Source: a virus
DNA: 64,000 nucleotides
IMG/VR virus record: IMGVR_UViG_3300036770_003093
Span: 1-64,000 of that record
Reading direction: 5' to 3' (one strand)
This document shows positions 23,983-53,204 of the stretch, piece by piece; the stretch's first letter is position 1; the number at the start of each line of letters is the position of its first letter. Below the pieces are notes generated by a model. That model saw only the letters and a list, made by a program, of their open reading frames with translations. It was not told where the DNA came from and searched no databases. Both the position numbers and the translations under genes were made by a program.

Positions 23983-26900
23983 TTAACTAAATAATCCTTT
24001 GTATTGAGTAAAGTAATTAGGATCTATACCCTGTTGCTGAGAAGATGCTTTATATTCACGGTCATAATCTTCTTTTGCCAGTTTAGTAGCTTGACTATCA
24101 TCTAGATTAAACTTAGTTTTAAGCATATCTTTTCTTTTTGCAACCTCATCCCAATCATATGTAGATGCTGTTTGAGAACCATCAAATGGTTTACCAACAC
24201 CTGTTGGAAATATCATACCACCTGTAGATGGATCTACTCTATACTGTGGATAAAGGGTATTCAGTGCCTGCGCCTTGGCAGCATTAGTTATAGCATTAGT
24301 ATATGACTGAACATATTGCTGACGAGCTTGATTTTTTGAGTTTTCAAACTGTTGGTTAGCAATAGTGTTCTTATCAAATATATTGGTTGCCCTATCAGCA
24401 GCAGCTTTCCTACCAGCGTCTTGCAAACTAAGATTTATTTGATTTGCCTGGTTATAGATGTTTTGATTAGCATTATTTACAGAGGCCAGAGTATCAGCAA
24501 TGCTTTTAGCAGCATTACCCTGTAAGTCTGACATCCTAGAAGAAAATGCTTGTGGTCCACTATATGATGCTAATCCTTGAACAGCTTGTCCTGCAGCTTC
24601 ATTTATAGCTGCTATTTGACGATCTGGATCAATGTATGATGCAAACATTTGAGGTGGTTCGTATGGTGCCACAAAAGGCAACTGTTTGTTTATGTTATAT
24701 AAGCTTCCAAAGGTAGCTAAATTTATTGCTTCATCTTGAGCCCACCATGGAGCACCGCCCACCATAGGAGGTTGTGTAGTAACATCTTGTTTGGTTTCAT
24801 CTTGGGTTACTGTTTCATCAACAGGTTGTTCTGGTGTAAAGTCTTCCTCGCCATATTTACCAAAATCATATCCGGCAATTTGACCACGAGTAGTGTTAGC
24901 TAAAATAGCATCTGCTTGAGAAATAGAACCTGCAGCTTGACCTTCTAAACTCTCGTTAAATCTACCACGCTGTTCAATACTAAACTTGTCAAGTTTTGGT
25001 TTTACTTTTTCAGATGGACTTTGTAACAAATCTCTATACGCAATATAAGACATCTGTTGTGCTAATCCCATATCTCTTTTTGGTGGCGTAATACCTATTT
25101 GTCTTAGTTTAGCATCAATGTCTTTAGATGTTTCACCTTGACCTTTAACATCATAATTATGAGCAGCTAAAGCAAGATTAGCTTTTTCAAATTCTAGAAA
25201 TTGTTTGACTATCTCATCAGGTTCTAAGTTTCTAAGTGCATCTTTCTGGGCTTGTGTAATGTTTTTACCAAAGTATTGATTCTTGTCTAAACCATCTTCA
25301 AACTTTTGAACAAACTCTGCTCTTACATCAGGATCATCAAATGCTTTTTTTAACTCTTGATACTGAAAAGCAATGCCTTTATTCTTATTAAAAATCTTTG
25401 TAAACTCATCAGAATTTTCATCTATATCAAACGTTGCTGGTTGACTGGTAACTTTTTTAAACTTACCAGCTGTTGTCTGATATATGTCTCCAACCTGCAG
25501 TTTAGATTTATCAAATCCCGGGTCTGATTCTTTTGGATATTGATTATTATTCCCAGGAACTTTACTTGCTGGTACAGTTTGAGTTTGAGTTGTAGCTGTA
25601 GCTGGAGTTGTAGCTGGAGTTGTAGCTGGAGTTGTTACAGGAGTATACTCTGATAAAGTTTTATCAAAAGCAGCAGCTTGATTCTTTTTAGCATATGCGT
25701 CTTTTGCTATTGTTGGTCGGTAATCATAAGTGCTTTGATTTTCAATATAAAACTCACGTGGTGTTTTATTTGTCGTAGGCGCATTTTTTGTAAAGTCAAA
25801 ATTATTCCACATTAAAGATCTAGGAACAAAGTTTTCTTTAAAGTTTCTAACATACACATCAGGGTCAGCATTTACATTTTGCCCTGTTTGATATGCACCA
25901 ATAATTTTAGCATCATCAATACTACTGATATTACTAGGATTAGTTAGAAAAGAATTGTAATCAAAGGTTGGTACATCCTTAACTGTACCACCCATTGTAG
26001 TAGGATCTATCTCTCCGCTAGCAGCTAAAACCAAATCTTTAATTGATCTACCAGTATTAAATTTATAATCAACAAGTCTTACTTGCATTTCAGGTGGTAA
26101 AGAGTTATAATCTACACCTAAAGTGTTAAGTTCATCTACTGTTTTAGTTATATACTCTTTCATTTTGGTCTTATTGTTACCTGTCCAGTTATTATCTGAA
26201 TAGGTGTTTTGATAAGACGTATTGCTTTGCGTAGCTGTTTTACCACCAGTCATGCCAGCATCTCTTTCATGCTTTAGAATATATTTTGTCCACTCATCTT
26301 TCCAATTATTATAAGCTGTGGTAGGATCTCCTGTAGAACCACCGTCATCAAATATTGGTAAAGTTACACGCACACGAGATTTTGTTTGTCCACCGGCGCG
26401 CATATAATTTCTTGGTACACCACCATATTCCATTACTGGATTATAGTATGAGCCACCGTACATCATCATCATCTCCGGTGATACACCTTGCATCATTTCT
26501 GGACTCATCATCTCTTGGCCCATCATCTCTTGATCAGGTGCCATCATTTGTTGAGCTTCTGGCTCTTCTTGAATAGGGCCCTGGTTATATGATTCTCCAG
26601 GTGTTTCTTCTAATTGCTCTTGACCAGGTTGTCCTTGTGGTATTAACATTTCTGGACTAATACCTTTGGACTCTAGATAAGGCATCGCAATCACAGGTAT
26701 TCCTTGGGGGAAACCTTTAATAGATTCTTGGGCTAGTGCTAAAGCCCCGAGTTTAAGATTGATGTTCTTTAACATCATCTCTGCAGTACGAACTTGTAAA
26801 GTATCACTGTTTTTATCTTGGAGTGCTTTACGAAACTCATTACCCTTTTTATTGATATGCTCAGATATTTGCGCCGGCGTATATGCATTCTTACCCTTTT

Positions 26901-27261
26901 TTGTAGGCATACCAAAGTAGGCTAACAAATCAGGATCCTTTATCAACATAGCACGCGTGTCCGAAAAGATAAAGCTATTCTCAGGAAGATTTAAAGGTAC
27001 ACCACCACTTGAATGTCGTGGTCCAGATATCTTGTAGAATTCTGGTAAACTGTCTTGGTTAATATCTCCAAATACAGTTTCACCACCTTCTGCTTCAAGA
27101 TTAGCTTCTTCACGAGGAACACGAGTTAGTGTTTTGCGTTCTTGTAAATTAGGTTGTTTAAACTTATTTACATCAGCACCACCCCACATGCTCATCTGGC
27201 GAGCATTGGCAGTAACTTCATTTCCGTACTGTGCTTTAGGCAATGTTACTCTAACTTTCAT
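23983..27261 (-). CDS. Giant cargo protein with lysozyme-like domain and GG/KAQ motifs
   Basis: The ATG at 27261 (MKVRVTLPKAQ) is chosen; the longer reading frame starts with TTG at 27267 inside the preceding stop region. About 1,092 residues. Residues 7-13 are LPKAQYG, then a conserved-looking region (EGGETVFGDIN...RHSSGGVPLNLP). Residues about 190-275 are a Met/Gln/Glu-rich low-complexity stretch leading into a cluster of GG motifs (MYGGSYY, MEYGGVP, MRAGGQT, FDDGGS). Residues about 320-440 contain KHERDAG and LPPEMQVRLVDYKFNTGRS, resembling phage lysozyme-like domains; the catalytic residue is not certain. A TTPA-repeat linker lies near residues 540-560 (bases 25580-25640). Probably a cell-wall lytic ejected protein. 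Confidence 0.55.
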   Translation of the reverse strand: MKVRVTLPKAQYGNEVTANARQMSMWGGADVNKFKQPNLQERKTLTRVPREEANLEAEGGETVFGDINQDSLPEFYKISGPRHSSGGVPLNLPENSFIFSDTRAMLIKDPDLLAYFGMPTKKGKNAYTPAQISEHINKKGNEFRKALQDKNSDTLQVRTAEMMLKNINLKLGALALAQESIKGFPQGIPVIAMPYLESKGISPEMLIPQGQPGQEQLEETPGESYNQGPIQEEPEAQQMMAPDQEMMGQEMMSPEMMQGVSPEMMMMYGGSYYNPVMEYGGVPRNYMRAGGQTKSRVRVTLPIFDDGGSTGDPTTAYNNWKDEWTKYILKHERDAGMTGGKTATQSNTSYQNTYSDNNWTGNNKTKMKEYITKTVDELNTLGVDYNSLPPEMQVRLVDYKFNTGRSIKDLVLAASGEIDPTTMGGTVKDVPTFDYNSFLTNPSNISSIDDAKIIGAYQTGQNVNADPDVYVRNFKENFVPRSLMWNNFDFTKNAPTTNKTPREFYIENQSTYDYRPTIAKDAYAKKNQAAAFDKTLSEYTPVTTPATTPATTPATATTQTQTVPASKVPGNNNQYPKESDPGFDKSKLQVGDIYQTTAGKFKKVTSQPATFDIDENSDEFTKIFNKNKGIAFQYQELKKAFDDPDVRAEFVQKFEDGLDKNQYFGKNITQAQKDALRNLEPDEIVKQFLEFEKANLALAAHNYDVKGQGETSKDIDAKLRQIGITPPKRDMGLAQQMSYIAYRDLLQSPSEKVKPKLDKFSIEQRGRFNESLEGQAAGSISQADAILANTTRGQIAGYDFGKYGEEDFTPEQPVDETVTQDETKQDVTTQPPMVGGAPWWAQDEAINLATFGSLYNINKQLPFVAPYEPPQMFASYIDPDRQIAAINEAAGQAVQGLASYSGPQAFSSRMSDLQGNAAKSIADTLASVNNANQNIYNQANQINLSLQDAGRKAAADRATNIFDKNTIANQQFENSKNQARQQYVQSYTNAITNAAKAQALNTLYPQYRVDPSTGGMIFPTGVGKPFDGSQTASTYDWDEVAKRKDMLKTKFNLDDSQATKLAKEDYDREYKASSQQQGIDPNYFTQYKGLFS

Positions 27262-27263
27262 AA

Positions 27264-30200
27264 TCAAATGTATTCAATTGTTCCACCCATTTGCTGAATG
27301 TATGCTATTTCTTCTGGTGATAAATCCATTTCATATGTACCACCATACTTTAATACACCACCAAATTTACCAAAACCAGATGTAACACCTGGGCTAAACT
27401 GCTGACGTTGACCCATAAAAGAAGTGTAGTTTCTAGCAGTATCACCTAGATTTGCTTCTATACCTCCATCAAAATTAGCAAAAGTACTAGGTGTATAGTT
27501 AATAGGATCAGTTTCTCTTTCTAACATCTGAGCTTGAGCTAATTCCTGATCAGCTCTGTTCTTTAAGTTAGTTACAAGATTGGTTCCTGAATAAGCAATG
27601 TCTGCCCACTGTGAAGCACTTAAAGGATTCTTTACAAAATCAGCTTTAAGAGTTTTCATTGATGGATTAGCGCCAGCTTCAGCAGTAACTTCTTGCAAAG
27701 ATTTTGTAGGAAGATTAACTGTTTTACGTTGTTGATCTAACAATGAAGTATCAAATTCTTCCATAGGATTAATATCACCAAATGTTTTTCCACTAATATT
27801 AACTGTTTCAGGATATCTACTTCTTCCAACAAAATCTTCCATTTGAGATTGACCTTCATTTAAAGGACCTATTTGACCAGGAAGCATTATACTTCCTGGG
27901 ATGTTTTCTTCAGCAATAAATCTTGATGTGGTTCTTATATTATTTTGCCCTTGAGGGTTTTCTCGAGAATATAGACTTGGATTATTATAACCTTCTTGTA
28001 CCAAACTTGTCACATAATCTTTTACTTGTTTAGGAACAACATATTCACCGGTGTTTTGAAAAGTAGGTAATCCACCAGTTCTATAAAGATAAAGTTGACC
28101 ACCTTTTTGTCTATTTTTAAGAGGTGGCGCCACAGGAAATTTTTCAATAAACCTTTTATCTTCTGGATTTCGAGAATCAATATAAACTGCAGTATCTCCT
28201 TCTGTACCAAATCTTTCTGTTAAACACTCTAAAGAATATGGTTCAAAATTTGTACAACCATAACTACCAAATCTATTATCCGGTTGACTAAATCTTTCAA
28301 GTCTTGATTGATATTCTTCTGGATTATAATATGGTTTTGCACCTTTACCCTGTGAAGGATCCCACGTATAACCAGGTTTTGCTCCTGCACCATATACAAT
28401 ATGCATTGCTAAAGGAGTTGTAGCAATAGGCGCTTTTTTTCCAAAAGCAGCAATAGGCTGTTGTAAATATCCAGGCCAACCATAAATACTCTTATCGTAT
28501 TTCATTTTATATGTTCCTGTTGGAGTAGACCTTGCAGCAGGATTATTTCTTAAATATGGTACTTTATAAGGATTAACATTAGGATCTGTTTCATAATTTT
28601 TACCAGCTAGTCCTGTTAATACTGGAAATTTTTGATCAATTTTCCCCTCTCTTACAAAATTAATAGTTCCCGTCGCCTTATCAACAATAACTCCAGATTC
28701 AAGAGTATTTCTAAGATCATCCTCATAATACCCTTCACCTCTACCAAACAAAGAATTATCCACAGCATCTCTAACATCAAATGATCTTCTTTTTAACAAA
28801 GGTGGTGTTTCAACTTTTACTTTGTTAATCTCTTTAATGTTTTGTTTTTTTGCCTGTTGAACTTCTTTAGAAACTGTTACTTTTTGTTTAGTATTAGTAG
28901 AAACTTGTTTACCATAGTATCCTGGGCCCTTAAACATTTCATTAGTGCCTGCAGCAAAATCTTTAACAACTTGATTGTTAGCAGCAATTGTTGAAGGGAT
29001 TTTTGATTTTTGTACAGGTTGTTTTTTAACGGGTTCTGCAGAAGCAGTTTGATTAGGTTTTTTATTAATAAGTTGAATGTCTCCAGAAAGAAGTTTATTT
29101 CTTAACTGAGCATTTTGTTCATAAGTACCTGTATAAGGTTCATCAAAATAATCTTGGAATATTTTTTTTCTAGATTCAAAAGATGGATCATACCCTTTAC
29201 TCTTTACTATATCATAAAGTGTTGATCCACCTTTTTGAAAAAGTTTTGGATTTTTATAACCTGTTTTTTGAATAGAACTATTATTATTATAAGAACGTTG
29301 TAAAATATTTTCTTCTCTTATATTAAGAGCATCTATTTCATCTTGATTACTTAAATCAATAGGACCAACACCACTAATGTCAACTGTTTGAGGATCTGCA
29401 GTTGTTCTTAGATAATTTGTATTAAAAGAAAAAGGTTGTGTAGTTGATACATTTTTTGGATCTAACAAAGGAGGAACTCCAATAGCAGCTGATGTATTAT
29501 TTTGTGCAGAAGTATTACTTCCAGAAGATTGAGCTGCAGCAGGATTAGCAGGAGAAGATGATGTTTGTGTTCCTGAACCAATTGTTACAGGAGGAATTGT
29601 AATGTCAGAAGGGTTTGTATTTACTCTAATATCTTGATTCCAAGAAGAAGGTGCATTTTCAGCAGGTGTTACAGATGTTGAAGTAGATGATCCAGGAGCA
29701 TTTATTTGAGGAAGAGCTCTGCTAAAAGTCATTGAAACTTTACGAGGATTATATATGTTTCCTAGAAAACCTTTTGTTGCTTCTACATTAGATAGATAAG
29801 ATGCTTCTAAAGGAATTTTACCAGAGAGCATTAATTGATCTTTAAGATCTTTTTGACTTCTATTTGTCATGCGATATCCCCGGGGCATATACCAATCATT
29901 AGATATTGGTGCGGCGCCAAACATATGAAGCAAGCTACCTAATCCTCTACCGCCATATCCTCCATAGTTGCCAGGGTAATAACCTTGATTAGAATATTGT
30001 CTTGCTAACAACTGATTAAACTGCTCAGGAGTTAAGGTTATATTTTGAGTAGTTTGAGTATTTGTGTTTCCTGTAGTTTGGCTTCCATCTGTACTACCTT
30101 CGTATCTTGGTAAACCTCCATAACGCATCATCTCAGGTTGCTCAAAATAATCCATACTTTGGTTAAAAGCTTCCTCAGCCATGTTATTAGCAACATTGCG

Positions 30201-30860
30201 CTGTATTCCTGAAACAAACTTTTTTAAACGCTCGCCGCCATAAGAAGATGTACCCGTAGGCACACTATCTGTATTTACCATTTCTTGAGCCATGCCCCGG
30301 GCCGCTTTCTTAAGTTGAGATGTAAACTTGTTGCGGCCACGCTTCTTGCTACCACCATACATGTACTCCTCATCATAATCTGCTGTAGCTGCTTCAACAG
30401 CAGCATCATACTCAGCTTCTTCTTCTAAACCAGCAATTTCATCTGGAGTAGGTGAAACTATAGGTTTTTGTGGACTAGCATACTCATCCTCTTCTTCATC
30501 GCCATACATAGATTCGCCTTGCTCATCAACCATTTGATCTTGTTGACGAGACTGCTGCATAGTATAGTACTCTTGTATTGTACCAACAATTTCTTGTAAA
30601 GCAGCTTGCTGATCCTCTTGACTCATAGATGAAACTTTCTCATATATGTCATTAGGATCTTGTTGAGTAATCTCAGAATACATTTGTATGTATTCGATGA
30701 GTTGTTCATTACCACCACCTTGTTGTTGCTGTTGTTGCTGTTGAGACCATGGTGTTCCACCAACTTGATAACGAAACGTGTTTACATTGTCATCAGTCTG
30801 CATGTTGCCATAAAAAGCATAATCATATAGGTTGGCGCCGGGAGTATATTCTGGTAGCAT
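27264..30860 (-). CDS. Giant cargo protein with L,D-transpeptidase (YkuD)-like domain
   Basis: 1,198 residues. A YkuD-like domain spans about residues 700-900: NPAARSTPTGTYKM (the TPxG signature), AMHIVYG with His820, and SYGCTN with Cys869 as the presumed nucleophile. The classic SHGC motif is here SYGC, and the His-to-Cys gap is longer than usual. YkuD enzymes act on peptidoglycan stem peptides, so a cell-wall role during entry is likely. The N-terminus has a poly-Gln run (bases 30719-30745) and an acidic region. GG motifs recur (YQVGGT, MYGGSK, MRYGGLPRY, FQKGGS, YRTGGLPTFQ, KYGGTY), the last near the C-terminus. Low-complexity Ser/Thr/Pro linker at about residues 390-490. The stop codon lies 2 nt before the next gene's ATG. 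Confidence 0.6.
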   Translation of the reverse strand: MLPEYTPGANLYDYAFYGNMQTDDNVNTFRYQVGGTPWSQQQQQQQQGGGNEQLIEYIQMYSEITQQDPNDIYEKVSSMSQEDQQAALQEIVGTIQEYYTMQQSRQQDQMVDEQGESMYGDEEEDEYASPQKPIVSPTPDEIAGLEEEAEYDAAVEAATADYDEEYMYGGSKKRGRNKFTSQLKKAARGMAQEMVNTDSVPTGTSSYGGERLKKFVSGIQRNVANNMAEEAFNQSMDYFEQPEMMRYGGLPRYEGSTDGSQTTGNTNTQTTQNITLTPEQFNQLLARQYSNQGYYPGNYGGYGGRGLGSLLHMFGAAPISNDWYMPRGYRMTNRSQKDLKDQLMLSGKIPLEASYLSNVEATKGFLGNIYNPRKVSMTFSRALPQINAPGSSTSTSVTPAENAPSSWNQDIRVNTNPSDITIPPVTIGSGTQTSSSPANPAAAQSSGSNTSAQNNTSAAIGVPPLLDPKNVSTTQPFSFNTNYLRTTADPQTVDISGVGPIDLSNQDEIDALNIREENILQRSYNNNSSIQKTGYKNPKLFQKGGSTLYDIVKSKGYDPSFESRKKIFQDYFDEPYTGTYEQNAQLRNKLLSGDIQLINKKPNQTASAEPVKKQPVQKSKIPSTIAANNQVVKDFAAGTNEMFKGPGYYGKQVSTNTKQKVTVSKEVQQAKKQNIKEINKVKVETPPLLKRRSFDVRDAVDNSLFGRGEGYYEDDLRNTLESGVIVDKATGTINFVREGKIDQKFPVLTGLAGKNYETDPNVNPYKVPYLRNNPAARSTPTGTYKMKYDKSIYGWPGYLQQPIAAFGKKAPIATTPLAMHIVYGAGAKPGYTWDPSQGKGAKPYYNPEEYQSRLERFSQPDNRFGSYGCTNFEPYSLECLTERFGTEGDTAVYIDSRNPEDKRFIEKFPVAPPLKNRQKGGQLYLYRTGGLPTFQNTGEYVVPKQVKDYVTSLVQEGYNNPSLYSRENPQGQNNIRTTSRFIAEENIPGSIMLPGQIGPLNEGQSQMEDFVGRSRYPETVNISGKTFGDINPMEEFDTSLLDQQRKTVNLPTKSLQEVTAEAGANPSMKTLKADFVKNPLSASQWADIAYSGTNLVTNLKNRADQELAQAQMLERETDPINYTPSTFANFDGGIEANLGDTARNYTSFMGQRQQFSPGVTSGFGKFGGVLKYGGTYEMDLSPEEIAYIQQMGGTIEYI

Positions 30861-30887
30861 AATGTATGTATTACAGTTAAAATACGA

Positions 30888-33800
30888 TTATTTTTTGGAT
30901 TTAGAAAATCTGCGGGGTTGTTGTTGGGTTATGAAGTTTAGTACTGGGTCTGTTTGTAAAGGACCGCCGTCATCAAATCTATATTTAATTCCCGCATTGA
31001 TCATTGGTCTATTATCAAACATGTTGGCGCCGATATATGCACTACCTCTATTACCAACAGATTGTTCTATACCAAAACCAGGGTTAATAAAAGAACCATA
31101 ACCAGGTTCAAAAGCAAACTGATTACTTAAATATGGAGAAGTACCTGTGGGTAAATCATAACTTAAACCAACATCACCATATACACCAGTTCCAGATTCA
31201 CCTGGATATGTTCTTATCATACCATAAGGGTTTAATTTTGATCCACCACGTTGATAACTTTCTGGTTGTTGATTCATTAGTTGATTTGCTCCCACAGCTC
31301 CTGCTGCTCCTGTACCTATAGCATAAGGTGCTATTGCAGGAGCGTTGTTTATAATTTCTAAAAGTTTATTTTTATCTTTTATCTTCCAAGGAAGATCATA
31401 TCCATCCGATATTAAATGTAAATTATCTTCCATTGTTTTTAAATCAATAGTTTGTCCTGGCTTTAATCCCAATTTATTTCTAAATCTAAAAATTTCAGGA
31501 TATGCTTCAGAAGGTATTAATCTAACAGCATCTGTAAAATCATTCCACAATCTATGTAATATAGGATTATTTGTACCTAAAAGTAATTTTGTTTTATGAA
31601 TACCTTCATGTACCCCAATATCTTCTGTAGCATTTAAAGGAATAGACGCTTGATCAAATGGTTTTACATATACTCCACCTGGTTGATTTTGTCCCCATAA
31701 ATAATTACTTTTAATAGGGTTTTCTAAACTATTTAAAACATCTTCCCATTCAGCCTCTGTACCTCCATAATCTATAAACTTTTTCTTTGTTTCTGGGTTA
31801 TAAAACCAATCTTCTAGCCATTTATCAGCAGCTCTTGAAGTTTGAGTTCTTTGGTACGGTGCTGAATAAAATGAAGGTGTTTCAAATTTAGGGAGCACGT
31901 TTATATTTTCTTCTTGTTCAAAGTATTGAGATGGTTTTATATTTGATGGATTAGTATTTAATTCTACTGACTTATTAGGAACATTTACTTTAGGTTGTTC
32001 TGTACCCCTAAGACCATCTACAAAATCTTTTAGTGAATTACTATTTCCTGTTTTAGATGGTTTAACATCATGAACATGCATTTTTCCAGCTATATCTTCT
32101 ACTAAAGCCCTTTCATAATTTTTTTTATTTCCTTTTCCAAACTTATTAAGCATATCCATTTCATCAAAATCTAATATCATATTGTTATGATATTTTAATC
32201 GTACATCGTGTACATCTAAACCTTTTTCCAGAATTTTATTATAATCTCCTAAACCTCTACCTACATTATCTACAACAGAAACTGCATTAGGCGAACCTGG
32301 TATTTGTCTTGGTACTTCTACTTGTGGATATCCTTTCCACCAGTGAGGTGTATTAAAAGCTTTATCTTGTTGTATAAGTTGTTGCAAATCATTTGTACTA
32401 AAGACTTCAGCCTGGTTTAATTTATCTTTTGGTACAATAAATTCTGTATCATAGTTTAAACTAGCTTTTTGAGCTTCAGGAAAATTTTTTAAATTGTACG
32501 CCATACCTTCTTTTTTAGGTACTTTTAGTCTAAGTATGTTACCCTCATCTCCATCTAATCTACCCTCCATATAAAAATTCATTCTGCTAGGGTTTTTATC
32601 AAACCATTGACCATGATACTCATCAAGTGCTTTTCTAAAAGGCTCAGGTTCGTATTTTATTCGATTAAGTTTTCCTTGTAAATGATATGGTACTTTTTCT
32701 CCTTTTAGTATTTTATCTGCTATTAAATCTTCTAAAAATTGTTGTTCTGTGTAACCAGCAACAAAATCTTTAGGTTGTGTTCTATAAAGAAACATTTCAG
32801 GATTTTCTTCTAAAGCTTTAGGATTTAATCTCCAAGCATTTCTTAAAGGAGTCTTTGTTGTAGCATATCTACCAGCTTGTCTTAATCCTTGTGCTCCTAA
32901 ATTGACAGCACCTTTTGCTAATGGTGCAGCCATTGCAATCACTGTACCATAATCTGACATAGCTTGGATTTCTTCAGGAGTAAACTCTCTACGCAAACCC
33001 ATCATTCCAGATACTGGACTAGAGCCAATTAATAACTGATCAACACCTGTAAGGAAATCATTTATACTTTCTGGATTTTGAGCAATTCTCATTATAGAAG
33101 GTACACCGGTGTACTCTGCAAGAGGCGTGGGATCATAACCACCAGGTTTGAAATAACTACTTGCCCGCACTGGAGCATTTCTTATTACACCACGATTTCT
33201 TTCATACTCTTCAGCAGCAGTTGCATTAATTTGTCTAGCTGCTTTTATTGGATCTGGTTTAGTAGCAACATTAGTTGAAGATCTCTCCGCGGCTTTTTGT
33301 TTAGGTTCAAAATCTCTAAGCTGAGGTTTAGCTTTTGGCTTCTCCCAATTATATCTACCAGTTAATGGATTAGGTTGAAACAGTTGAGGATTAAATTGAC
33401 CTAGCATTTGAGCTTTTGGTAAAGAACCGCCAATTTGATATGGAAAATATTTTCTTGGTATTCGTATACCTGCAAATTTTATAGGCTGGTAATTAGAATT
33501 AATAATATTACTTACACCTTCACCTATTTCTTTTCTAAACAATGTTTTTTCAGGAAGTGATAATGTTGAAAAATCTTTATTTGAATAATTAGGACTTAAA
33601 TACTCGGAAGGATTTACATCAAACCTAATATTCATGTTTGGATTATTTCTTATTTCTGGTGGAAGAGTTAACTCCCCTTGTAAATAATCATCTGATACTG
33701 TTACTGATTTAGGTTTACCAGACATACCTTTAGCAGCAGGACTCATAGATTTTTCTAAATTTCTAATTTGTCTTTCTGATAATCTGTTAACTAGTACATT

Positions 33801-35447
33801 ACCTGGTCCAGGTCTTGTTTGCGGATAAAAACCAAGTCCTGATAAAACGTCAATTTTTTGATTAGGATTAGAAAGACTGCTATTAAAAGTTGCTGGATCA
33901 TATCCATACCAAGAACCTTTTAATGCTTTTTGTTCATCTGTAAGATTTAAATTACCTGCTTTTAAAAAACCTGGAATTTCATCTGGTTGCCAACGAACAG
34001 CATTAGCATATTGAGGAAGTTTTCCTCTTGGTATACTATATGCCAAATCTTTACCATAATCAACTACACCTTTTGGAATAGTATTAACAGCTTGTTTCAT
34101 TCCTGCAGTAACAGGAGCTTTAAGTGCTGAACCTAATACTGTTGCTGTACCTACAGCATCTAATGTATTAAAAGCTCCTTCAACATCTTCTGCCCTAAAA
34201 GATCCTTCACCAGTTAGAGGATTAACACCTTGTGTAGCATATTGAATCCCACCTGCAGGATTCATCCTAGCAAATGCGCCAACTGTCATTCCTAAATCAA
34301 CAAGAGTATTACCAGCACCTTTTAAACTAGTAACTGGATTTTGAGCAAATCTAACTGTTCCTGGAATACCTGTTAACTCTGCAGCTCCTTTAACACCTAA
34401 TACAGCAGCTCTTGATAAATCATCTCTTAAACTTGTATACTGGGGTGTTATTTTAAATTCTGGTAATGTTCTAGCTCTAACAAAATCTTCAGGATCACCA
34501 GACAAACTAGTAGTTAGTGTTCCTTGATTATATGCTTGCTCATATTCTGGTGTACCATATTTTACCTCATTAGGATTTTCTGTTTGTAATCCTGGTTGAG
34601 CTTTAGGTAATGACCCACCTGATTTAAAGTTTTTTCTAAAAGCTCTAAATGGTAATTTGTCTTTACCATCAGGGTATTTATGAATATTACTTTTTACTAA
34701 AGGTTTATCTTTTGAACCATCTCCTACATATTCATCATCTCCTACATAAATTCCTAAATGTGTTGGTCTATCTTTTTCATAGTACTGAATAATATCACCA
34801 ACTTGAAGTTGTTCATTAGGAACAAGGGTAAATCCGTATTTTGAATAATTTTCAAGGAAATCTTTGTTGTTAAGAACATCTTCAGGAATACCTGAATTTA
34901 AATTTGCTTCTTTAAATATATCACATACACCTTTTACACAAGTGTTGTCATAATACTTTTTTTCACCAGGAATAAAAAAATCTGAAATCTTTTCTGTAAA
35001 ACCTGCAGCAGGTCTTGACACATCATATAATTCTTCAACTAGTCTTTTTGCTGTATTAGCTAATCTTATGTTTTCTGGAATTTTTTCATCTATAACTGTA
35101 TACTCAGGTAAATTTATAATAGGTGTTGATAAACCATTTTGAGCCATGGGTAACTCAAGTACATTTAGACCAGGAACCTTGGGCTCCTCAAGTATATATC
35201 GACCACGAAACTTATACTTTTTTCCTGGATACATCATTTGTGTGTATCCTGTTTCATCCTGGCCTAGCACTGGATAAGGAACGTCTTCCATAGTGATATT
35301 ACCATCATCTGTTGGCACCAACGTAGTCATAAATGGAAAATCCCATTGACCTCTTTCAGATACAATGATACCTTTTACCTTTTGAAACATTTCATTAGGG
35401 CCCCCAGGTAACCCTTGACGAGAAGATTTAGAATATGCTTTTTTCAT
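30888..35447 (-). CDS. Giant cargo protein: NlpC/P60-like peptidase, possible ADP-ribosyltransferase, HEGIH zincin
   Basis: 1,519 residues. N-terminal cysteine peptidase of the NlpC/P60 or CHAP type: NTCVKGVC with Cys170/Cys175, VGDIIQYY, and THLGIYVGDDEYV with His230. Residues about 880-1005 (LYRTQPKDF, HGQWFDKNP, YDTEFIVPKD) fit an ADP-ribosyltransferase-like R...W/F...E pattern; this is tentative. Residues 1280-1284 are HEGIH, a zincin motif, with TEDIGV before it as in other phage peptidases. The last about 110 residues alternate Gly and aromatic residues (beta-rich). GGSLPKAQPG (bases 34590-34619) and GGSLPKAQ (33408-33431) are two near-identical copies of the motif shared with the two following giant proteins. 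Overlaps the muzzle gene's stop by 4 nt; 27 nt to the next gene. Likely envelope penetration. Confidence 0.6.
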   Translation of the reverse strand: MKKAYSKSSRQGLPGGPNEMFQKVKGIIVSERGQWDFPFMTTLVPTDDGNITMEDVPYPVLGQDETGYTQMMYPGKKYKFRGRYILEEPKVPGLNVLELPMAQNGLSTPIINLPEYTVIDEKIPENIRLANTAKRLVEELYDVSRPAAGFTEKISDFFIPGEKKYYDNTCVKGVCDIFKEANLNSGIPEDVLNNKDFLENYSKYGFTLVPNEQLQVGDIIQYYEKDRPTHLGIYVGDDEYVGDGSKDKPLVKSNIHKYPDGKDKLPFRAFRKNFKSGGSLPKAQPGLQTENPNEVKYGTPEYEQAYNQGTLTTSLSGDPEDFVRARTLPEFKITPQYTSLRDDLSRAAVLGVKGAAELTGIPGTVRFAQNPVTSLKGAGNTLVDLGMTVGAFARMNPAGGIQYATQGVNPLTGEGSFRAEDVEGAFNTLDAVGTATVLGSALKAPVTAGMKQAVNTIPKGVVDYGKDLAYSIPRGKLPQYANAVRWQPDEIPGFLKAGNLNLTDEQKALKGSWYGYDPATFNSSLSNPNQKIDVLSGLGFYPQTRPGPGNVLVNRLSERQIRNLEKSMSPAAKGMSGKPKSVTVSDDYLQGELTLPPEIRNNPNMNIRFDVNPSEYLSPNYSNKDFSTLSLPEKTLFRKEIGEGVSNIINSNYQPIKFAGIRIPRKYFPYQIGGSLPKAQMLGQFNPQLFQPNPLTGRYNWEKPKAKPQLRDFEPKQKAAERSSTNVATKPDPIKAARQINATAAEEYERNRGVIRNAPVRASSYFKPGGYDPTPLAEYTGVPSIMRIAQNPESINDFLTGVDQLLIGSSPVSGMMGLRREFTPEEIQAMSDYGTVIAMAAPLAKGAVNLGAQGLRQAGRYATTKTPLRNAWRLNPKALEENPEMFLYRTQPKDFVAGYTEQQFLEDLIADKILKGEKVPYHLQGKLNRIKYEPEPFRKALDEYHGQWFDKNPSRMNFYMEGRLDGDEGNILRLKVPKKEGMAYNLKNFPEAQKASLNYDTEFIVPKDKLNQAEVFSTNDLQQLIQQDKAFNTPHWWKGYPQVEVPRQIPGSPNAVSVVDNVGRGLGDYNKILEKGLDVHDVRLKYHNNMILDFDEMDMLNKFGKGNKKNYERALVEDIAGKMHVHDVKPSKTGNSNSLKDFVDGLRGTEQPKVNVPNKSVELNTNPSNIKPSQYFEQEENINVLPKFETPSFYSAPYQRTQTSRAADKWLEDWFYNPETKKKFIDYGGTEAEWEDVLNSLENPIKSNYLWGQNQPGGVYVKPFDQASIPLNATEDIGVHEGIHKTKLLLGTNNPILHRLWNDFTDAVRLIPSEAYPEIFRFRNKLGLKPGQTIDLKTMEDNLHLISDGYDLPWKIKDKNKLLEIINNAPAIAPYAIGTGAAGAVGANQLMNQQPESYQRGGSKLNPYGMIRTYPGESGTGVYGDVGLSYDLPTGTSPYLSNQFAFEPGYGSFINPGFGIEQSVGNRGSAYIGANMFDNRPMINAGIKYRFDDGGPLQTDPVLNFITQQQPRRFSKSKK

Positions 35448-38400
35448 CGAGATGAGTATTGAAGCTTTTCATTAAACGATCTTAGAATCATGTTTACATT
35501 TCCAGAAACACGTCTTCTAAAAAGTACATAGTTAAGATAGTGTCTAAACTTCTTACGCTGAGTTTGAAGTTTATTATAGTTTAGATTGTTTGGATTCAAA
35601 TCTTTTAAATAACCATTTGGTTGTGTGTTCCAAATTTGCCTTTGAGCAATAGGGTTAAACTCGCCGCGATCATCCGTGATATCCCAGAACTGATTAAAAC
35701 GAATTTTCTGTTCTTCTTTAGCATAAAGAATATCTATGCTGCCGGGGTTAATAATTGGATATGCAAGGTTTGCTATACCGTTATTCTTAGACTGCAGATT
35801 TAAGCGTAACAAACCAGAAGTTTGTTCTGTATTCCAGATCACTGCCTCATCAAAGTTGTAGTCTAAAATCTGAAAATCATCAGTACAGTTATTAAGATTT
35901 CTTGCAACAAAGGATTCTACAGTATATTCAACACTACGCATTGTAAATACTTGTTGTCCTGTTGCTACCGGGATCTCAATTTCAAAAGGATAGTCTACAC
36001 CATAATAGTTACAGTATTGCGCGCAGGTATTGTTGTGTCGCCATATACCAGATCCTTTAATACTAGAGAAGTGATTTTTTGAAGGTAATAATAGATCAGG
36101 TTTCCAATCATGGAAACTTATCCACATCTCATTTTTAAGGTCATAACTAATTGTCCATGATGCATCTTCAAAGTAGTTAAAGAATGCCTGATCACCGATC
36201 TTTACACGGATTACTCTATCAACAACAAACTCGTTAGTAGACGCATCATATAAAACTCGTTTGGTTCCTTTGTATTGATCCTTTAGATAGAAATCTTTCT
36301 TGGTAATATAAAGTATGGTGTCTACGTTTTCGTAGATTGTTTGCATACCAATACCGGCCACAGGGTTATCAATTAGTTTGAAGTTTGGAAAGTCTTTTAG
36401 CAATTCATATTGCATGTATTTAAAGAACCACCATTTCAAACCTGATAGAGATATCTCTTTTAGTTGACCGGTATACTGATATACTTTACCTTGATTTTGA
36501 CTAGTCCAAAACAATCCACCAGGGGTACTTATTACAGAACGTATGTCTTGACAAGACGCATACTCAAATGAGTTCTCAGCATTTACAATTCTTTGTTCCG
36601 CTTGAGAAAATAGTGCACCGTCGCCTAAAGTAACCTTTGTACCAAGATCAGTTTTAAGTTCATCTACACCTTGAAATATTACCGGGCTAGCATCTCTAAA
36701 GAAAAAGATTGCGCCATTTTTACTAATACTCTTGATCCCAGTAATATAGTTACGATAATCTTTATAGTTATTAGCTAAATAGATTCTCCAGCTATCTCTT
36801 ATCTGCTCATCTTGCTGAGGTAGTGAATACAATATCCGGTATGGAAAATATTGATAACAAAGTTGTGATACCTGCGGATCATAATTACGAGCTTGTAATT
36901 CACCCCAGGATATAAAGTTGTTGAATAACCTACTTATACTAAAAGACTCATCGTATGCATAGAAGTTATCAAACGGTATAACATTTGGGTTTGCGTTGAA
37001 CATGGTTTCCAGATCATTGAAACCATATGGATCATAGAACTTGTCTTTATCTTCTAAACCTTGTTCTCTAAACTCAGATAAGCGTTCTGTCTCAACAAAG
37101 AAATCTCTTACACCAGAATTGAATAGATAAAAGCAAGCATCAACATTATCAAAAACATTATTCTCATTATCTAAGTCATAAAAGTCTTCAGGCAGAATAC
37201 CACTACCTGATGATGGACTTGGCAAACTACCTGTTAAAATAGAGTTCATCGCTGAATTTACAGCTCCAGATAAAGTAAACTGTTTACTATTAACCCAAAA
37301 TCTAGGTTTTGTCAACATCCTATATGTATAGTAGTTGTATTCAAACCCATCAGGTTGACCATACAACCAATCATTAAAATAAAAGAATGTTGTCTTTTCA
37401 GTGTATCTCTGTATGTATGTGTCTCCACCAAAATATAAACATTGCGGCGCCGTAGTGCTATTAAGATTTAAACCAGAAGGTATAACTCTCTTAGTATAAG
37501 TTTTACCATTAACAGTAAAGCTAGATTGTATAAGAGTAGAGAAATCAATTTTCTGTTCGCAGTCTGTAATAGGAATTTGTTTAATACTATCTAGCTGACC
37601 ATACTGATTTTGTATTCTTACTTTAATACCACCATACCATGATGAGATATTTCTTTCAAACTCTTGTCTTGGATCTGAATAACTTGCTGGTTTAGCTAAA
37701 CTGTCATCTAGATTTGGTGGTAATAATAAGATTGTACTCTGATTATTAAGTGTAGTTTTTATACCAACAAAAGTATTTCGCTTAATATTATTGATTTTAA
37801 AATCCTCATCAAAAGTTATAAGCCCCGGTCTAATATATGCGTTTCTATCAATTTCTCTAGTTATGTTGTTAATAATTGGTCTTGCAGAATTTGAATAAAA
37901 ACCGTGGGCAATACTTTGAAGCGCATATTGAGCAAAAGGTGTAAATGCATAAATAGCACGCATTGCTGTTTCAGCACCTTCTGTAAAGAAATTAATAAAA
38001 TTAAAAAAAGGAAATAACGCATCAACAGCACCTAATGGAAGACCGTCATATGGTGTAGACTCATAAGTTTCTCTATACTCACCTGTTAAAAAACCTGGTA
38101 GAGTTTTTGCAAAACTATCATCTGCTGCTTGTGTTGCTTGCGATGTTGATGATTGACCACCAGGAAGTGCCGCTTGGCCTATTGCCGAAATACTACTTGC
38201 TGAAGTGCTACCTGCTGTAGATTGAAACGCGCTTGTAACATGTGCTCCTGGAATTGGAAAAAATGGAAAAAATGTTCCAGGAAGAGTTGTACCATTTAAT
38301 GTAGGTGGAAAAGCTATATTAAGACCCCTTGGTGAAGAATAACTTCTTTGCTTTTTACCATTAAGTTTAATGATACCATAAGCGGCACCTGCTATTACAG

Positions 38401-40486
38401 CAAATAGAACAAAAATGTTTTTGATTAATTTGAACTGTGGATGATCTTCAGGCTCCTGGAAATAATGTAAAGATTTACCATAAATGTTACTGTAGATCTT
38501 TAATTGTTTAGTACTTAGATATGGTCTATTAAAGTTTGTATCAGGTGAATGAAAACTTAAATAGTCATAAGTAAACTGATTTACAGTTGGACTTATATCT
38601 AAGAATGGATCTAGTTTAAGATCATTGAATGGGTAGTTTTGATACAGTACTGTTTCAATAAGATTACCCGTATTATCTTTTACATCATACTTACGCATGT
38701 TGTTGACAAGACCTTTAGCAATAATTGATCTGTTACCCTGACGTGTTCCTCTTAGTATTTCATACCCTACTATGTTTGTTATATCATTGCCGTCGTTGTC
38801 TTTAGGGAGCGCGATGTTTTCAAACCTTACACCCATGATGCGGATGAACTGATTTCCATTTGCATCTACCCTGAAATGCACAAGCTCGTTGCGATTTGAA
38901 TAACCATTAGGGTTATATTGATAGGTCTCAGGAAATTTGTGATGGCGAATATTTTTACCACACAAATCATAACTGCTATTAGGTATATTAAACACCCCGG
39001 TCCATGGCTGAGAACTTGAATTCCAAATATCTGGTTTATCATCAGGGTATATCTCTGTTGATTCCCAGTATCCCATATCACCTTCCGCAATGATTTGCCC
39101 TTGATAAGGTACGTCATCAACAGGCTTTGATATGTTTGGTGCAGAGGTAATAACCGCTGTGTTATATACCTGCCAGATTTCATTACCAGAACCCTCAGCA
39201 ATATTTTGTGCAGCATCTGCATTTGATACTGTTAAGAGATCATAGTTGTTATTTAAATTAGCAACACGCCCCGGTATATGATAAGAACGACTTTTATCAC
39301 CGGTATCATAAACCCACCTTATAAAAAATGAATATACCTCATCTCTTAAATAAGATGTTCTAAAGCCCCCTTTCTGATAATAATCGGCAGGGTATTCAAC
39401 AGAAACCCATTTAGCACCAATTAAGTTTGCTAGAGGTTGATAGTTGAAGTCTAACTTACCAGTTGGCCTAATTCTGAGTAAATACCTATTTACATCAAAC
39501 ACACCTTCGCTTTTCTCAAACACAGGATTTCTTAAAGGTATATTCTCAATAGGTACCGATGGTAACTCAGTAGCAATAATGTCTAGAGATATAATGTTTT
39601 GCCGGGTGCTGTAAACACCAATCCTCTTAGCAACAGTTTGTTGAGAAACTATAGATACAATTACAAGTTCAAACTCACTAAAGTTCTCTGTATCAGCATC
39701 CACTTCAATTTCTAAAGATCCTGCAAACTCAGAATCTCTATCAAATAAAACTTGAACATTACTCGGAGAAAAGTAGTTTGTTACTGTTTGTCCATCAATA
39801 CAATATGCTACTACTGCATAATATGAACCTGCTTGAAGATTACCACCACCGGGACCTTGACGCACCTTTAAACAAGGTGTTTTCATTAATGATGCTAAAC
39901 GCAATTTATCACAATCAAGCTGTGGTAAATCAACATATGTTGTACAACCATTAACTGTAGTAGGGTCTTGTTTCCATGGTGGACCATCCCACAATGACAA
40001 AGGTTGAATACAATCTTGTGGCCAAAGTTGTGGGTTACCAATGTTCATAACCCTGTCTGGGTTTAAACCATCAGCCCAATAAATTGACCATGTACAATCA
40101 GCATTTTCTCTTGATACACCAAGAATAAGATTCTCTTTCTTAAATGAAAGACAGTCGTCGTTTACAATTGTCAAATAACAACACTCGCTCTCATCATAAA
40201 GACCTATTTCTGAGTTAGTATTATTAGTAGAGTAAATAATCCACTTGTCACCAAATAGATGTGTTGTCCCTATAATTGGATATGGCGCAGCACCACACAA
40301 AAAGTTAGCAGGCTCATTTGATACTGTACCAACATCACCTGTAACAGTATTGTTTTGTAAATTTCTAGCATGTGTCCAAAAACCTTCAGGTAAGAATGTA
40401 GTATCTACATCCTTATTCATACCTTTTGTAAAAGGTCTTGTTACAACTGTGCTGCTAACATTTTCTGATGAACCTTTCTTTGCCAT
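35444..40486 (-). CDS. Tail stabilisation/muzzle-type protein of crAss-like phages
   Basis: 1,680 residues, mostly beta-rich with many aromatic and Asn residues. Begins with TRPFTKGMNKDVDTTFLPEGFW, a start typical of the very large crAss-like tail protein annotated stabilisation protein, called the muzzle in the crAss001 structure. It follows two ring-protein candidates directly, as in other crAss-like phages, and precedes the cargo genes. A hydrophobic segment at about residues 688-710 (IFVLFAVIAGAAYGII) is followed by a Gly/Ser/Ala-rich stretch of about 80 residues; such a segment is odd in a structural beta protein and might insert into a membrane or plug the barrel. Overlaps the preceding gene by 1 nt and the next by 4 nt. 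Family call from order, length and start; not tested by search. Confidence 0.75.
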   Translation of the reverse strand: MAKKGSSENVSSTVVTRPFTKGMNKDVDTTFLPEGFWTHARNLQNNTVTGDVGTVSNEPANFLCGAAPYPIIGTTHLFGDKWIIYSTNNTNSEIGLYDESECCYLTIVNDDCLSFKKENLILGVSRENADCTWSIYWADGLNPDRVMNIGNPQLWPQDCIQPLSLWDGPPWKQDPTTVNGCTTYVDLPQLDCDKLRLASLMKTPCLKVRQGPGGGNLQAGSYYAVVAYCIDGQTVTNYFSPSNVQVLFDRDSEFAGSLEIEVDADTENFSEFELVIVSIVSQQTVAKRIGVYSTRQNIISLDIIATELPSVPIENIPLRNPVFEKSEGVFDVNRYLLRIRPTGKLDFNYQPLANLIGAKWVSVEYPADYYQKGGFRTSYLRDEVYSFFIRWVYDTGDKSRSYHIPGRVANLNNNYDLLTVSNADAAQNIAEGSGNEIWQVYNTAVITSAPNISKPVDDVPYQGQIIAEGDMGYWESTEIYPDDKPDIWNSSSQPWTGVFNIPNSSYDLCGKNIRHHKFPETYQYNPNGYSNRNELVHFRVDANGNQFIRIMGVRFENIALPKDNDGNDITNIVGYEILRGTRQGNRSIIAKGLVNNMRKYDVKDNTGNLIETVLYQNYPFNDLKLDPFLDISPTVNQFTYDYLSFHSPDTNFNRPYLSTKQLKIYSNIYGKSLHYFQEPEDHPQFKLIKNIFVLFAVIAGAAYGIIKLNGKKQRSYSSPRGLNIAFPPTLNGTTLPGTFFPFFPIPGAHVTSAFQSTAGSTSASSISAIGQAALPGGQSSTSQATQAADDSFAKTLPGFLTGEYRETYESTPYDGLPLGAVDALFPFFNFINFFTEGAETAMRAIYAFTPFAQYALQSIAHGFYSNSARPIINNITREIDRNAYIRPGLITFDEDFKINNIKRNTFVGIKTTLNNQSTILLLPPNLDDSLAKPASYSDPRQEFERNISSWYGGIKVRIQNQYGQLDSIKQIPITDCEQKIDFSTLIQSSFTVNGKTYTKRVIPSGLNLNSTTAPQCLYFGGDTYIQRYTEKTTFFYFNDWLYGQPDGFEYNYYTYRMLTKPRFWVNSKQFTLSGAVNSAMNSILTGSLPSPSSGSGILPEDFYDLDNENNVFDNVDACFYLFNSGVRDFFVETERLSEFREQGLEDKDKFYDPYGFNDLETMFNANPNVIPFDNFYAYDESFSISRLFNNFISWGELQARNYDPQVSQLCYQYFPYRILYSLPQQDEQIRDSWRIYLANNYKDYRNYITGIKSISKNGAIFFFRDASPVIFQGVDELKTDLGTKVTLGDGALFSQAEQRIVNAENSFEYASCQDIRSVISTPGGLFWTSQNQGKVYQYTGQLKEISLSGLKWWFFKYMQYELLKDFPNFKLIDNPVAGIGMQTIYENVDTILYITKKDFYLKDQYKGTKRVLYDASTNEFVVDRVIRVKIGDQAFFNYFEDASWTISYDLKNEMWISFHDWKPDLLLPSKNHFSSIKGSGIWRHNNTCAQYCNYYGVDYPFEIEIPVATGQQVFTMRSVEYTVESFVARNLNNCTDDFQILDYNFDEAVIWNTEQTSGLLRLNLQSKNNGIANLAYPIINPGSIDILYAKEEQKIRFNQFWDITDDRGEFNPIAQRQIWNTQPNGYLKDLNPNNLNYNKLQTQRKKFRHYLNYVLFRRRVSGNVNMILRSFNEKLQYSSR

Positions 40487-41535
40487 TACAGTATATATGA
40501 TCTTCTATAAGGATAAGCTATCTGATTCCATGGATAGCTCTTAAACATGTCATAGTATTTAGCATACATTGCACGCCGGTTAGTTTCCCAGAGCTGTTTC
40601 ATCTCAGCAAAGTTTGGCATGTTGATAAAGCTTAATGCTGTATTACGAGCAGCTCTATATCTGGCTTCTATTAACTGCATCTTGGCAGTCACATCTTCGC
40701 CGTTCATAAGGAGATTCTCGAGTATGCGTTGTTTCAGCGCGTACTCATAATACTCATTAAGATACTCATGATCTGGCACCAGTAGATTACCATCTTCGTC
40801 TTCTAAAGAACCTTGGTAGTTTAGATACACATTACCATGCTCAAAATTGACATATAGGAAACCATCTTTGATCCAACCCTCGTGTTGTGATTTCCAATAT
40901 AAGTTTGGGCAACCACATTCTACGTCTTGTGATTCACGCAATCTTAATGGGTGCACACTACGATAATGACGAGTTTGTGATTTTAGAATCTGTACAATCT
41001 CATACTGCTCTCCCTTTTGATTCACAAAAGTTCGCGGGCGCACGCATACATTACCATATGGATTATTAGGATCATACACATTAGTTTGTGTATATACAGT
41101 ACCATTATCTCCGGGCATGCACATAGCAGGTGTACAACCACAAGGTGTGCAACCACAATCTGCACAGTTTACTGTAGGCTCTGCACACTGATTAATTGTT
41201 CCAGGTGTTTCTGTATAAGTAGGAACAACCTTAACTTCTTCAATATGAGTACCTTGTGGAACAAACTCTTTTGTTGTAAGATCTGCACAAATCAATGCGT
41301 AGTTTACACTAAAGAAATCTTCTGGAAGTTGAACCTTATAATTACAAACTTCTAGTACAGTTTCTTTAGTCATGTAAATCCTGAGACCTAAATCATAGGT
41401 AACACGTTTTGCAACCTTGATCAAAGTTTGTGGGTCAATCATATTATCCAAAGCATATTGCCTGAAATCAACGTTGACGTCCTCTAACAAACTGTCAAAG
41501 GTTTTATATTTAATTGTATAGTTATACGTAGCCAT
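40486..41535 (-). CDS. Tail-barrel ring (connector) protein with inserted Cys-rich loop
   Basis: 349 residues. Helical N-terminal part, a central beta-rich part (WIKDGFLYVNFEHG) and a helical C-terminal part ending in a YPWNQIAYPYRRSYIL tail. Gene position just before the muzzle gene matches the ring protein 2 position of crAss-like phages, and the helix-beta-helix plan resembles P22 gp4/T7 gp11-type head-tail connectors. A Cys-rich insert at about residues 115-145 contains nine Cys in a CxDCGCxPCGC pattern, probably a surface loop with metal or disulfide bonds. Both gene junctions are 1-nt TAATG overlaps. Confidence 0.6.
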   Translation of the reverse strand: MATYNYTIKYKTFDSLLEDVNVDFRQYALDNMIDPQTLIKVAKRVTYDLGLRIYMTKETVLEVCNYKVQLPEDFFSVNYALICADLTTKEFVPQGTHIEEVKVVPTYTETPGTINQCAEPTVNCADCGCTPCGCTPAMCMPGDNGTVYTQTNVYDPNNPYGNVCVRPRTFVNQKGEQYEIVQILKSQTRHYRSVHPLRLRESQDVECGCPNLYWKSQHEGWIKDGFLYVNFEHGNVYLNYQGSLEDEDGNLLVPDHEYLNEYYEYALKQRILENLLMNGEDVTAKMQLIEARYRAARNTALSFINMPNFAEMKQLWETNRRAMYAKYYDMFKSYPWNQIAYPYRRSYIL

Positions 41536-42206
41536 TACCGTAGAATATTCTGTTTATCATCTTGACCATCACTTGGAATACTGGCGCCGGCAGTAAGTTC
41601 TTTTAAAGCAAACTGCTCTATCTCAGCAAACAAGTAATCTGGTACATTAAAGTTTTGTTCCTGGCGCGGTATACACTGTTCTTCTGAGTCACACTGAAAA
41701 GCTCCAATATTACCTTCAAAGATTGCTTCTACCTTAATGGCTTCCCATGTTTGATTAGGTATATAGATATAATCGTTTATGATCCAGCAATAGACATTCT
41801 TGTTGTACTTAAAAGTACTAGTCTTAGTCATGGATGTGTATGTACCGGGATCAGTAATCGTTACAGATTGAGATCCATCAATAGATGTAATTGATCTAAA
41901 CATGGGACCATAAGTAGCATCTAAGATCTTTGGGAGTTTGTCTTTAGTACGCATGATGGTACAATTTGTTTTGATCCCAGAGCAACATGCTTCTATCTTG
42001 TCAACCTCAATAAGTTCTACACAAGGTAGCACGCTATAGATAGATGACATGCGAATAATCTTACCGCGGTCATCATCTCTCTTTATCAAGAGTTTAGCAT
42101 ATTTCAATATTACTGTATACAACATACGATCAGTAATGAAGCTGTCTTCATTGACAGCTTTCATTATACTCCGTAATCTTGATACAGCATCACCTATAGT
42201 ATTCAT
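41535..42206 (-). CDS. Tail tubular/ring protein
   Basis: 223 residues. N-terminal helices (DAVSRLRSIMKAV, DRMLYTVILKYAKLLI) followed by a beta domain with a W-I-x-N-D-Y-I-Y-I-P strand pattern and a C-terminal helix (FAEIEQFALKELTAG). This is the general plan of phage head-tail connectors (P22 gp4, T7 gp11), and its place between a small conserved gene and the next ring protein supports a ring of the tail barrel. Five Cys in the middle domain. Overlaps its neighbours by 4 and 1 nt, so stoichiometric production with the next ring protein is likely. Ring number not determinable from sequence alone. Confidence 0.6.
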   Translation of the reverse strand: MNTIGDAVSRLRSIMKAVNEDSFITDRMLYTVILKYAKLLIKRDDDRGKIIRMSSIYSVLPCVELIEVDKIEACCSGIKTNCTIMRTKDKLPKILDATYGPMFRSITSIDGSQSVTITDPGTYTSMTKTSTFKYNKNVYCWIINDYIYIPNQTWEAIKVEAIFEGNIGAFQCDSEEQCIPRQEQNFNVPDYLFAEIEQFALKELTAGASIPSDGQDDKQNILR

Positions 42207-50091: not shown

Positions 50092-50589
50092 CTATGAAAG
50101 AAAAAGAAGTTTATATTTTGCAGCATTTATACTGTCTTTTACTGTATCTAAACTATTTACTATTTCAGAGTAAGGCATTTTAGCTTGCAGTTTTGTAATT
50201 ATTGCATACATATCTCTTAGATAATTTACAGCGTCTTGTAAATCATCTAGTTGTCTAGGGACAGATTCTGTATACTTTAATAGTTTTTCAGAAGCACCTT
50301 GATATCCTTCAATTAAAGAATCAGCATGATCTGGTAATGCATCATATAGATCATTAAGAGCTTTATGTGCAGCATATGAACCAGGTCCTGTAATCTTTAG
50401 ATGTAGTTTATGAAAGCTTGATGCTGCATTCATCATCTCTGTTGCACAGGCAGCAGTCATTGTGTCTAAGGAACTACCGCCCACACCTGTATCTGAAACA
50501 GGTTGTGGTTTTGCAGTTTCTTTATCTACAACTGGCCTGCTAATCTGTTTTGCAGGCTGCGGGTTGCGTTTTAGTAATCTAGTTTCCAT
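50092..50589 (-). CDS. Dps/ferritin-like helical protein (DUF5856-like)
   Basis: 165 residues. A Pro/Lys-rich 40-residue N-terminus, then four predicted helices. Residues about 58-100 (SFHKLHLKITGPGSYAAHKA, LYDALPDHADSLIEGYQG) follow the Dps pattern LHKLHW...FFxLHxxFExLYDEL...DxIAERI. From memory this is the small family annotated DUF5856 in phages and giant viruses. Dps proteins bind DNA and oxidise iron; the His/Asp/Glu ferroxidase ligands are only partly kept here (H-x-x-H and D-H-x-D). Placed between a ring candidate and the 542-aa virion gene, overlapping the former's gene by 1 nt, so it is probably made late and could be packaged. Confidence 0.6.
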   Translation of the reverse strand: METRLLKRNPQPAKQISRPVVDKETAKPQPVSDTGVGGSSLDTMTAACATEMMNAASSFHKLHLKITGPGSYAAHKALNDLYDALPDHADSLIEGYQGASEKLLKYTESVPRQLDDLQDAVNYLRDMYAIITKLQAKMPYSEIVNSLDTVKDSINAAKYKLLFLS

Positions 50590-51740: not shown

Positions 51741-51742
51741 TT

Positions 51743-52006: not shown

Positions 52007-52008
52007 AA

Positions 52009-52341: not shown

Positions 52342-52361
52342 GGTTATATAAAATTAAAAGG

Positions 52362-53037: not shown

Positions 53038-53039
53038 AA

Positions 53040-53186: not shown

Positions 53187-53191
53187 AAGAT

Positions 53192-53199: not shown

Positions 53200-53204
53200 A
53201 AAAA

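Follow-up and report, generated by a model that had tools for sequence, protein, structure and literature searches.

The capsid-targeting sequences of phage T4 are short peptides shared by basic internal proteins and cargo, and they are subject to cleavage by gp21; these tags are N-terminal, occur in a single copy and contain [LI]xE sites. Polyvalent proteins of phages and conjugative elements (Iyer et al. 2017) comprise many unrelated domains in one virion-delivered polypeptide; in the searched passages of that study some members are cut before packaging and no shared border peptide is described (PMC5512222). In the phage PhicrAss001, two segments of cargo protein 1 (C1, gp45) were resolved, residues 214-245, which are bound to the barrel, and the portal-bound domain 425-552 (PMC10172136). 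Here we describe a peptide, further termed the tag, that recurs in three consecutive giant proteins, A, B and C, of a viral genome. The analyzed stretch, further termed the window, comprises the first 64 kb of the 118,243-bp record IMGVR_UViG_3300036770_003093, and its gene order and gene families are those of a crAss-like phage.

As in C1 of PhicrAss001 and its relatives, the genes of A-C follow the muzzle gene and their products have GG-rich linkers with [YF]GGxL motifs. Parts of C1 are bound to the portal and the tail barrel, and protein C of the window modestly resembles the C1 family by predicted fold. Unlike C1, the function is distributed here among three proteins, which contain many more modules and in which the LPKAQ tag is far stronger. 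The polyvalent proteins have in common with tag-bearing cargo the lysozyme-type and ADP-ribosyltransferase domains and a mosaic evolution (PMC5512222, in the passages covered). With regard to several effector domains per protein, A and B of the window have one recognizable domain each (NlpC/P60 and YkuD, respectively), and relatives have LysM and YkuD in L154, ART-PolyVal in L094 and SET in L106. The SET domain (L106:15393-20000) and the ADP-ribosyltransferase ART-PolyVal (L094:12474-20000) are located inside tag-bearing cargo proteins. In contrast to the T4 sequences, the tags of the window are mostly internal and repeated rather than N-terminal, and no cognate protease was recognized in the head genes scanned. 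Viral polyproteins also contain a repeated short motif, the cleavage site, between functional domains; unlike in these sites, conservation of the tag extends over a larger number of residues, and its likely P1 residue varies.

A recurrent peptide in three giant proteins

The sequence-only reading reported near-copies of one peptide at five places. All five were found on the minus strand in A, B and C at the reported positions, except that GGLPTFQNTG starts at 28047, one base from the 28046 given before. Protein A (30888-35447, 1519 amino acids), encoded by the first gene after the muzzle gene, contains GGSLPKAQPG at 34590-34619 and GGSLPKAQ at 33408-33431. Protein B (27264-30860, 1198 amino acids) contains GGLPRYEGS at 30093-30119 and GGLPTFQNTG at 28047-28076, and protein C (23983-27267) has LPKAQYG at 27223-27243.

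A profile built from 119 instances collected from IMG/VR has the consensus K-Y-G-G-S-L-P-K-A-Q-x-G-x-E, of which GG, LP and parts of KAQ were fixed by the seed pattern, and the consensus is free of this bias only at the flanking Y, K, S, G and E; the conserved length is about 11 residues. In a non-redundant set of related proteins this profile produced 147 matches of at least 12 bits, compared to none in shuffled sequences, so that the enrichment over shuffled proteins on which the sequence-only reading depended is evident. In the complete genome, matches of at least 5 bits were confined to A, B and C, apart from weak ones in two small basic open reading frames (ORFs), with 1.05 matches in shuffles. 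The scores are 34.7 bits (34590-34619) and 34.6 bits (33408-33431) in A, 12.7, 6.5 and 6.5 bits in B, and 5.9 bits in C. The two GGSLPKAQ copies of A are far beyond chance. The GGLP forms of B and the copy in C are weak when taken singly and gain support through conservation in relatives: GGLPRYEGS is kept in L338 and L339, and the counterparts of the B tags in these two close relatives are GGLPRYQ/GGLPTFQ and GGLPTFQ/GGLPRFQ, respectively. LPKFET in A (31878-31895), found by a regular expression only, is a possible degenerate tag.

The pattern GGxLPKAQxG, searched at the DNA level, is present in at least 119 IMG/VR stretches; 81 of the 85 new ones have it in frame, in ORFs with a median length of 998 amino acids. 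The stricter YGGxLPKAQ was found in 62 stretches; in 60 of these it is in frame, within ORFs that have at least 60 amino acids and are mostly large and GG-rich. Among 257 Gb of bacterial and archaeal genomes there were 62 matches to GGxLPKAQxG, with about 60 expected by simple base counting; only 28 of these matches are in frame, and there are no repeated copies. Hence, the motif is common in giant phage proteins and occurs at chance level in bacterial and archaeal genomes. LPKAQ is not named as a phage motif in the literature searched, which left most subscription journals outside its coverage, and the tag seems to be undescribed so far.

Tag positions, module exchange and selection on the peptide

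Protein A consists of an N-terminal headpiece, a tag variant, an NlpC/P60 module, a tag, further modules, another tag and a conserved C-terminal module. The headpiece (35181-35384, about 70 amino acids, ITM..V.YPVLG...MM.PG..Y.F.G) is followed by the variant LPMAQNG (residues 99-105, 35133-35153). The NlpC/P60 peptidoglycan endopeptidase module (residues approximately 121-275, 34623-35087) is thus flanked by two tags; in a fold search its model resembles MepS (E 1.9e-4). The model of A is confident to residue 275 and its confidence drops exactly at the tag, at residue 277, right after the NlpC fold; beyond residue 303 nearly all of the model has low confidence and is uninformative. For C, the modeled residues 39-205 are well folded, and both tag-bearing stretches (1-38 and 210-311) have predicted local distance difference test values below 50. 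These models suggest that the tags occupy disordered linkers framing folded modules; since they rest on thin alignments (34 and 8 sequences), the low linker confidence is suggestive, not proof, of disorder. The modules between tags include NlpC/P60 in A and YkuD in B, and in relatives LysM, YkuD and ART-PolyVal or SET, LysM and PG_binding_1; successive tags are separated by a median distance of 336 residues.

The headpiece is present in 63 proteins, including those of phage Lbo-JY46 and Cellulophaga phage phi17:2. In most of the 63 it is N-terminal, and in some it is internal and preceded by a tag. No match in this region was listed when A was scanned with Pfam. Queries against annotated phage records found nothing with the complete protein A, and with the headpiece the only match was Lbo-JY46. 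The counterpart of the headpiece in Cellulophaga phage phi4:1, gp040, is a virion protein annotated from tandem mass spectrometry (MS/MS), and by analogy A-C may also be located inside virions.

Homology between related proteins frequently begins or ends at the tag. In A and its counterpart in the closest relative, L007, only residues 1-112, 671-727 and 1387-1519 are common, and the muzzle proteins of the same two genomes are 93% identical. The first of these stretches ends just after LPMAQNG and the second begins at the tag (residue 673), so the tag at 33408-33431 is the exact start of homology to L007/G001. Downstream of the tag at 34590-34619, the NlpC module continues into different modules in L198 and L214; the module that follows this tag is preceded by different modules in L006, L008, L009 and L010. 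At GGLPTFQNTG, located after the transpeptidase module, B matches L338 and L339 through FQ and is unrelated beyond. When all motif proteins are taken together, homology breakpoints are located inside a tag in 22 of 74 cases, compared to 2.7 expected. Because the tag itself could draw out the alignments, the test was redone with tags masked, and 38 of 191 breakpoints were near a tag in both partners, compared to 0.6 expected; the protein pairs behind these counts are not fully independent. Finally, the near-identical phages L149 and L154 (97-98% identity at the DNA level) are distinguished by an insert of 716 residues with GGSLPKAQ copies at both ends. The earlier statement that the peptide always stands at borders between regions is therefore borne out by the predicted linkers, the breakpoints and this insert.

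Such exchange could also be expected of a mere flexible, easily threaded linker at module joints, with the likeness of its copies derived from one ancestral joint and from recombination at shared sequence. The tags do lie within disordered stretches, and recombination does use them: the L149/L154 insert junction is inside an identical 24-nucleotide stretch. We consider this explanation rather improbable, as a bare linker would not retain about 30 bits of sequence, and the tag also occurs in places that have no comparable joint, namely at the N-terminus of a protein and in small basic proteins. In addition, tag copies within one protein have 56.7% identical codons compared to 51.9% expected from codon use, and only one of 18 pairs with identical peptides has identical DNA. 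Synonymous codons are nearly randomized between copies, therefore selection keeps the peptide rather than the DNA. The same codon choice led us to reject a DNA recombination seam as the main reason for preservation of the motif.

The flanks of tags are alike within one genome (z=5.3, with homologous flanks excluded); nearby control stretches have z of at most 1.7. This likeness hints at a recognizing partner that varies between phages.

Protein B contains a YkuD-like L,D-transpeptidase module (about 28344-28691) and ends with a helix-GG-strand element (LSPEEIAYIQQMGGTIEYI, 27267-27323) that is kept at the C-terminus of its relatives and is separate from the tag. The GG of this element is sometimes AG or LG in relatives (LIAAGADIEIL, LIELGYDFEVV). 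Helix-GG ends, e.g. LSPEEIAYIQQMGG, superficially match, in both A and B, a bacteriocin-type double-glycine leader (LSxxELxxIxGG), the substrate of a C39-like peptidase. This candidate was rejected and is extremely improbable: the spacing exceeds that of the leader by one to two residues, the element is C-terminal in B, the glycines are replaced as above, and the ORFs scanned contained no recognized C39 domain.

Protein C, small basic proteins and genome context

The tag of C is located at its disordered N-terminus (MKVRVTLPKAQYG), and relatives of C carry an N-terminal KVRI..LPxAxxG; a query with the N-terminus of C against annotated phage records found nothing. The confidently modeled domain (residues 39-205, GPRHSSGGVPLNLP..FIFSD, 26647-27147) is followed by a disordered GG-rich tag cluster (YGG..YGG..AGG..RVRVTLPIFDDGG, 26329-26454). 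A fold search with the model of C retrieved C1-family proteins of crAss-like phages and a structural protein of phi4:1 (E 4.5e-4 and 9.7e-4). PhicrAss001 gp45 contains three [YF]GGx[LIV] motifs, compared to 0.13 expected (p=0.0002). Both resolved gp45 segments start at such a motif or at most 7 residues from it: the portal-bound domain begins at AFGGWL, and the barrel-bound segment just after AYGGPLE (segments from PMC10172136).

The Leptolyngbya phage Lbo-JY46 (PP438436.1; L124, L127) has the capsid protein, the A headpiece and the start of C (MKIRIIGLPKAQIG) in common. Its recorded host is a cyanobacterium, and the host may deserve a check.

The sequence-only reading also linked the peptide to small basic proteins encoded at 51294-53880. 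This link is clear in relatives, whose small basic proteins, encoded downstream of the capsid gene, yielded 39 matches of at least 8 bits compared to 3 in shuffled sequences. Inside the window it is weak: the two matches score 6.6 and 5.1 bits and are not significant alone. The protein at 51294-51740 (minus strand) has the degenerate tag KKSLKKYQAAG (about 51618-51647), and its orthologs in relatives read KKSLPKAQxG. In the small proteins, KK stands in place of GG, V in place of L and K in place of P. In L014-L088, the small basic proteins encoded after the capsid gene are mosaics of short recurring modules, e.g. KFAALAPPYDKATFADRIAGAKKNARKK and KKWIQKAINPAHKGYCTPMSKPTCTPKRKALAxTLKKMAKK, joined by KKGG stretches.

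The window encodes terminase (61287-63491), portal (58511-61285), major capsid protein (55487-57103), ring-like proteins (40486-42206) and a muzzle-like protein (35444-40486), with the genes of A, B and C immediately following the latter on the minus strand. A 3930-residue protein (2047-13839) is taken for a virion RNA polymerase, judged by its size and place. A Dps-like protein (phrog_858, E 2.8e-20) is encoded amid the structural genes at 50092-50589. Elsewhere in the genome, a DUF2201 metallopeptidase with a VWA-like domain was found at L003:16193-18581 (genome positions 99193-101581); its neighbor has a weak match to AAA ATPase.

Potential roles of the tag

We propose, with a probability of roughly 0.45, that the peptide is a border tag of modular virion cargo that is recognized in trans and serves as a docking or loading handle. 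Proteins A-C would be strings of swappable folded modules, many of them acting on peptidoglycan, joined by disordered linkers that bear the tag, and would probably be packed into the particle and injected. A structural protein lining the portal, the tail barrel or the capsid interior could bind the extended tag. Each module would then be loaded and held in a threadable chain regardless of its own fold, and modules could be exchanged freely provided that the joint retains the tag. Docking is preferred because the tag is long, is repeated even in close clusters, and occurs on proteins from which nothing would have to be split off; a further reason is that the ORFs scanned contained no recognizable maturation protease. 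In a more general version, which we regard as possible and as somewhat less probable, one phage-encoded virion receptor would read the same peptide on both the giant modular cargo and the small basic internal proteins, and the cargo would be a plug-in system: whatever module stands between tags would be packaged and injected.

Alternatively, the tag may be a maturation cleavage site. A, B and C would be similar to polyproteins and would be cut at every tag during assembly or ejection; single modules would then pass the narrow tail and act separately, and the N-terminal copies in C and in the small basic proteins would be propeptide sites, as in the internal head proteins of T4. The location of tags at module borders in disordered linkers, the median module of 336 residues, the presence of the tag in small basic proteins, and the coherence within genomes, as expected of a protease and its sites, are consistent with cleavage. 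The polyvalent proteins DarA and DdrB of phage P1 are cut before packaging (PMC5512222, in the passages searched). The genome has candidate peptidases, namely NlpC/P60 in A and the DUF2201 metallopeptidase; if tags are cut, the latter is a candidate for the responsible protease. Conversely, no prohead protease was recognized by PHROGs and Pfam among the head genes and the part of the other ORFs that was scanned, and the capsid, portal and scaffold-like proteins are devoid of the tag, which leans against a classical maturation site. About 11 residues are conserved with no single invariant scissile pair, given the replacements in the small proteins, and clusters of several GG motifs within 50 residues would be hard to explain as cut sites. 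Moreover, gp45 is regarded in the structural study of PhicrAss001 as a single chain bridging the tail and the capsid (PMC10172136). On balance, cleavage appears less likely than docking and is nevertheless a strong rival, better supported than a bare linker.

Several observations weigh against the docking handle. The same facts fit a protease site about equally well, and our analysis identified no binding partner of the tag. The link from C to C1 by fold is modest (E 4.5e-4 to 9.7e-4), the comparison of a sequence profile of C with PhicrAss001 gp45 gave no support, and a PDB fold search with the model of C returned chance matches only, with gp45 not among them. The YGGPL motif of gp45 before residue 214 is outside the resolved segment. 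In addition, the tag is weak or absent in the A proteins of many relatives; L092 and L094-L098 have GG and few LPKAQ. Of the two functions suggested by the sequence-only reading, an address tag and a protease site, neither is set apart by these data; its more basic proposal of a shared border peptide with a common function is supported by the linkers, the breakpoints, selection at the peptide level and coherence within genomes. The safest statement is that of a trans-recognized peptide tag at the joints of modular virion cargo.

The tag offers an approach to how crAss-like phages select, load and eject large internal proteins. It predicts cargo proteins in hundreds of uncultured phages and allows for in silico excision of their modules at likely borders. 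The tag can be tested as a synthetic peptide, e.g. KYGGSLPKAQDGE. If it is a loading tag, it could be used to put chosen enzymes into phage particles.
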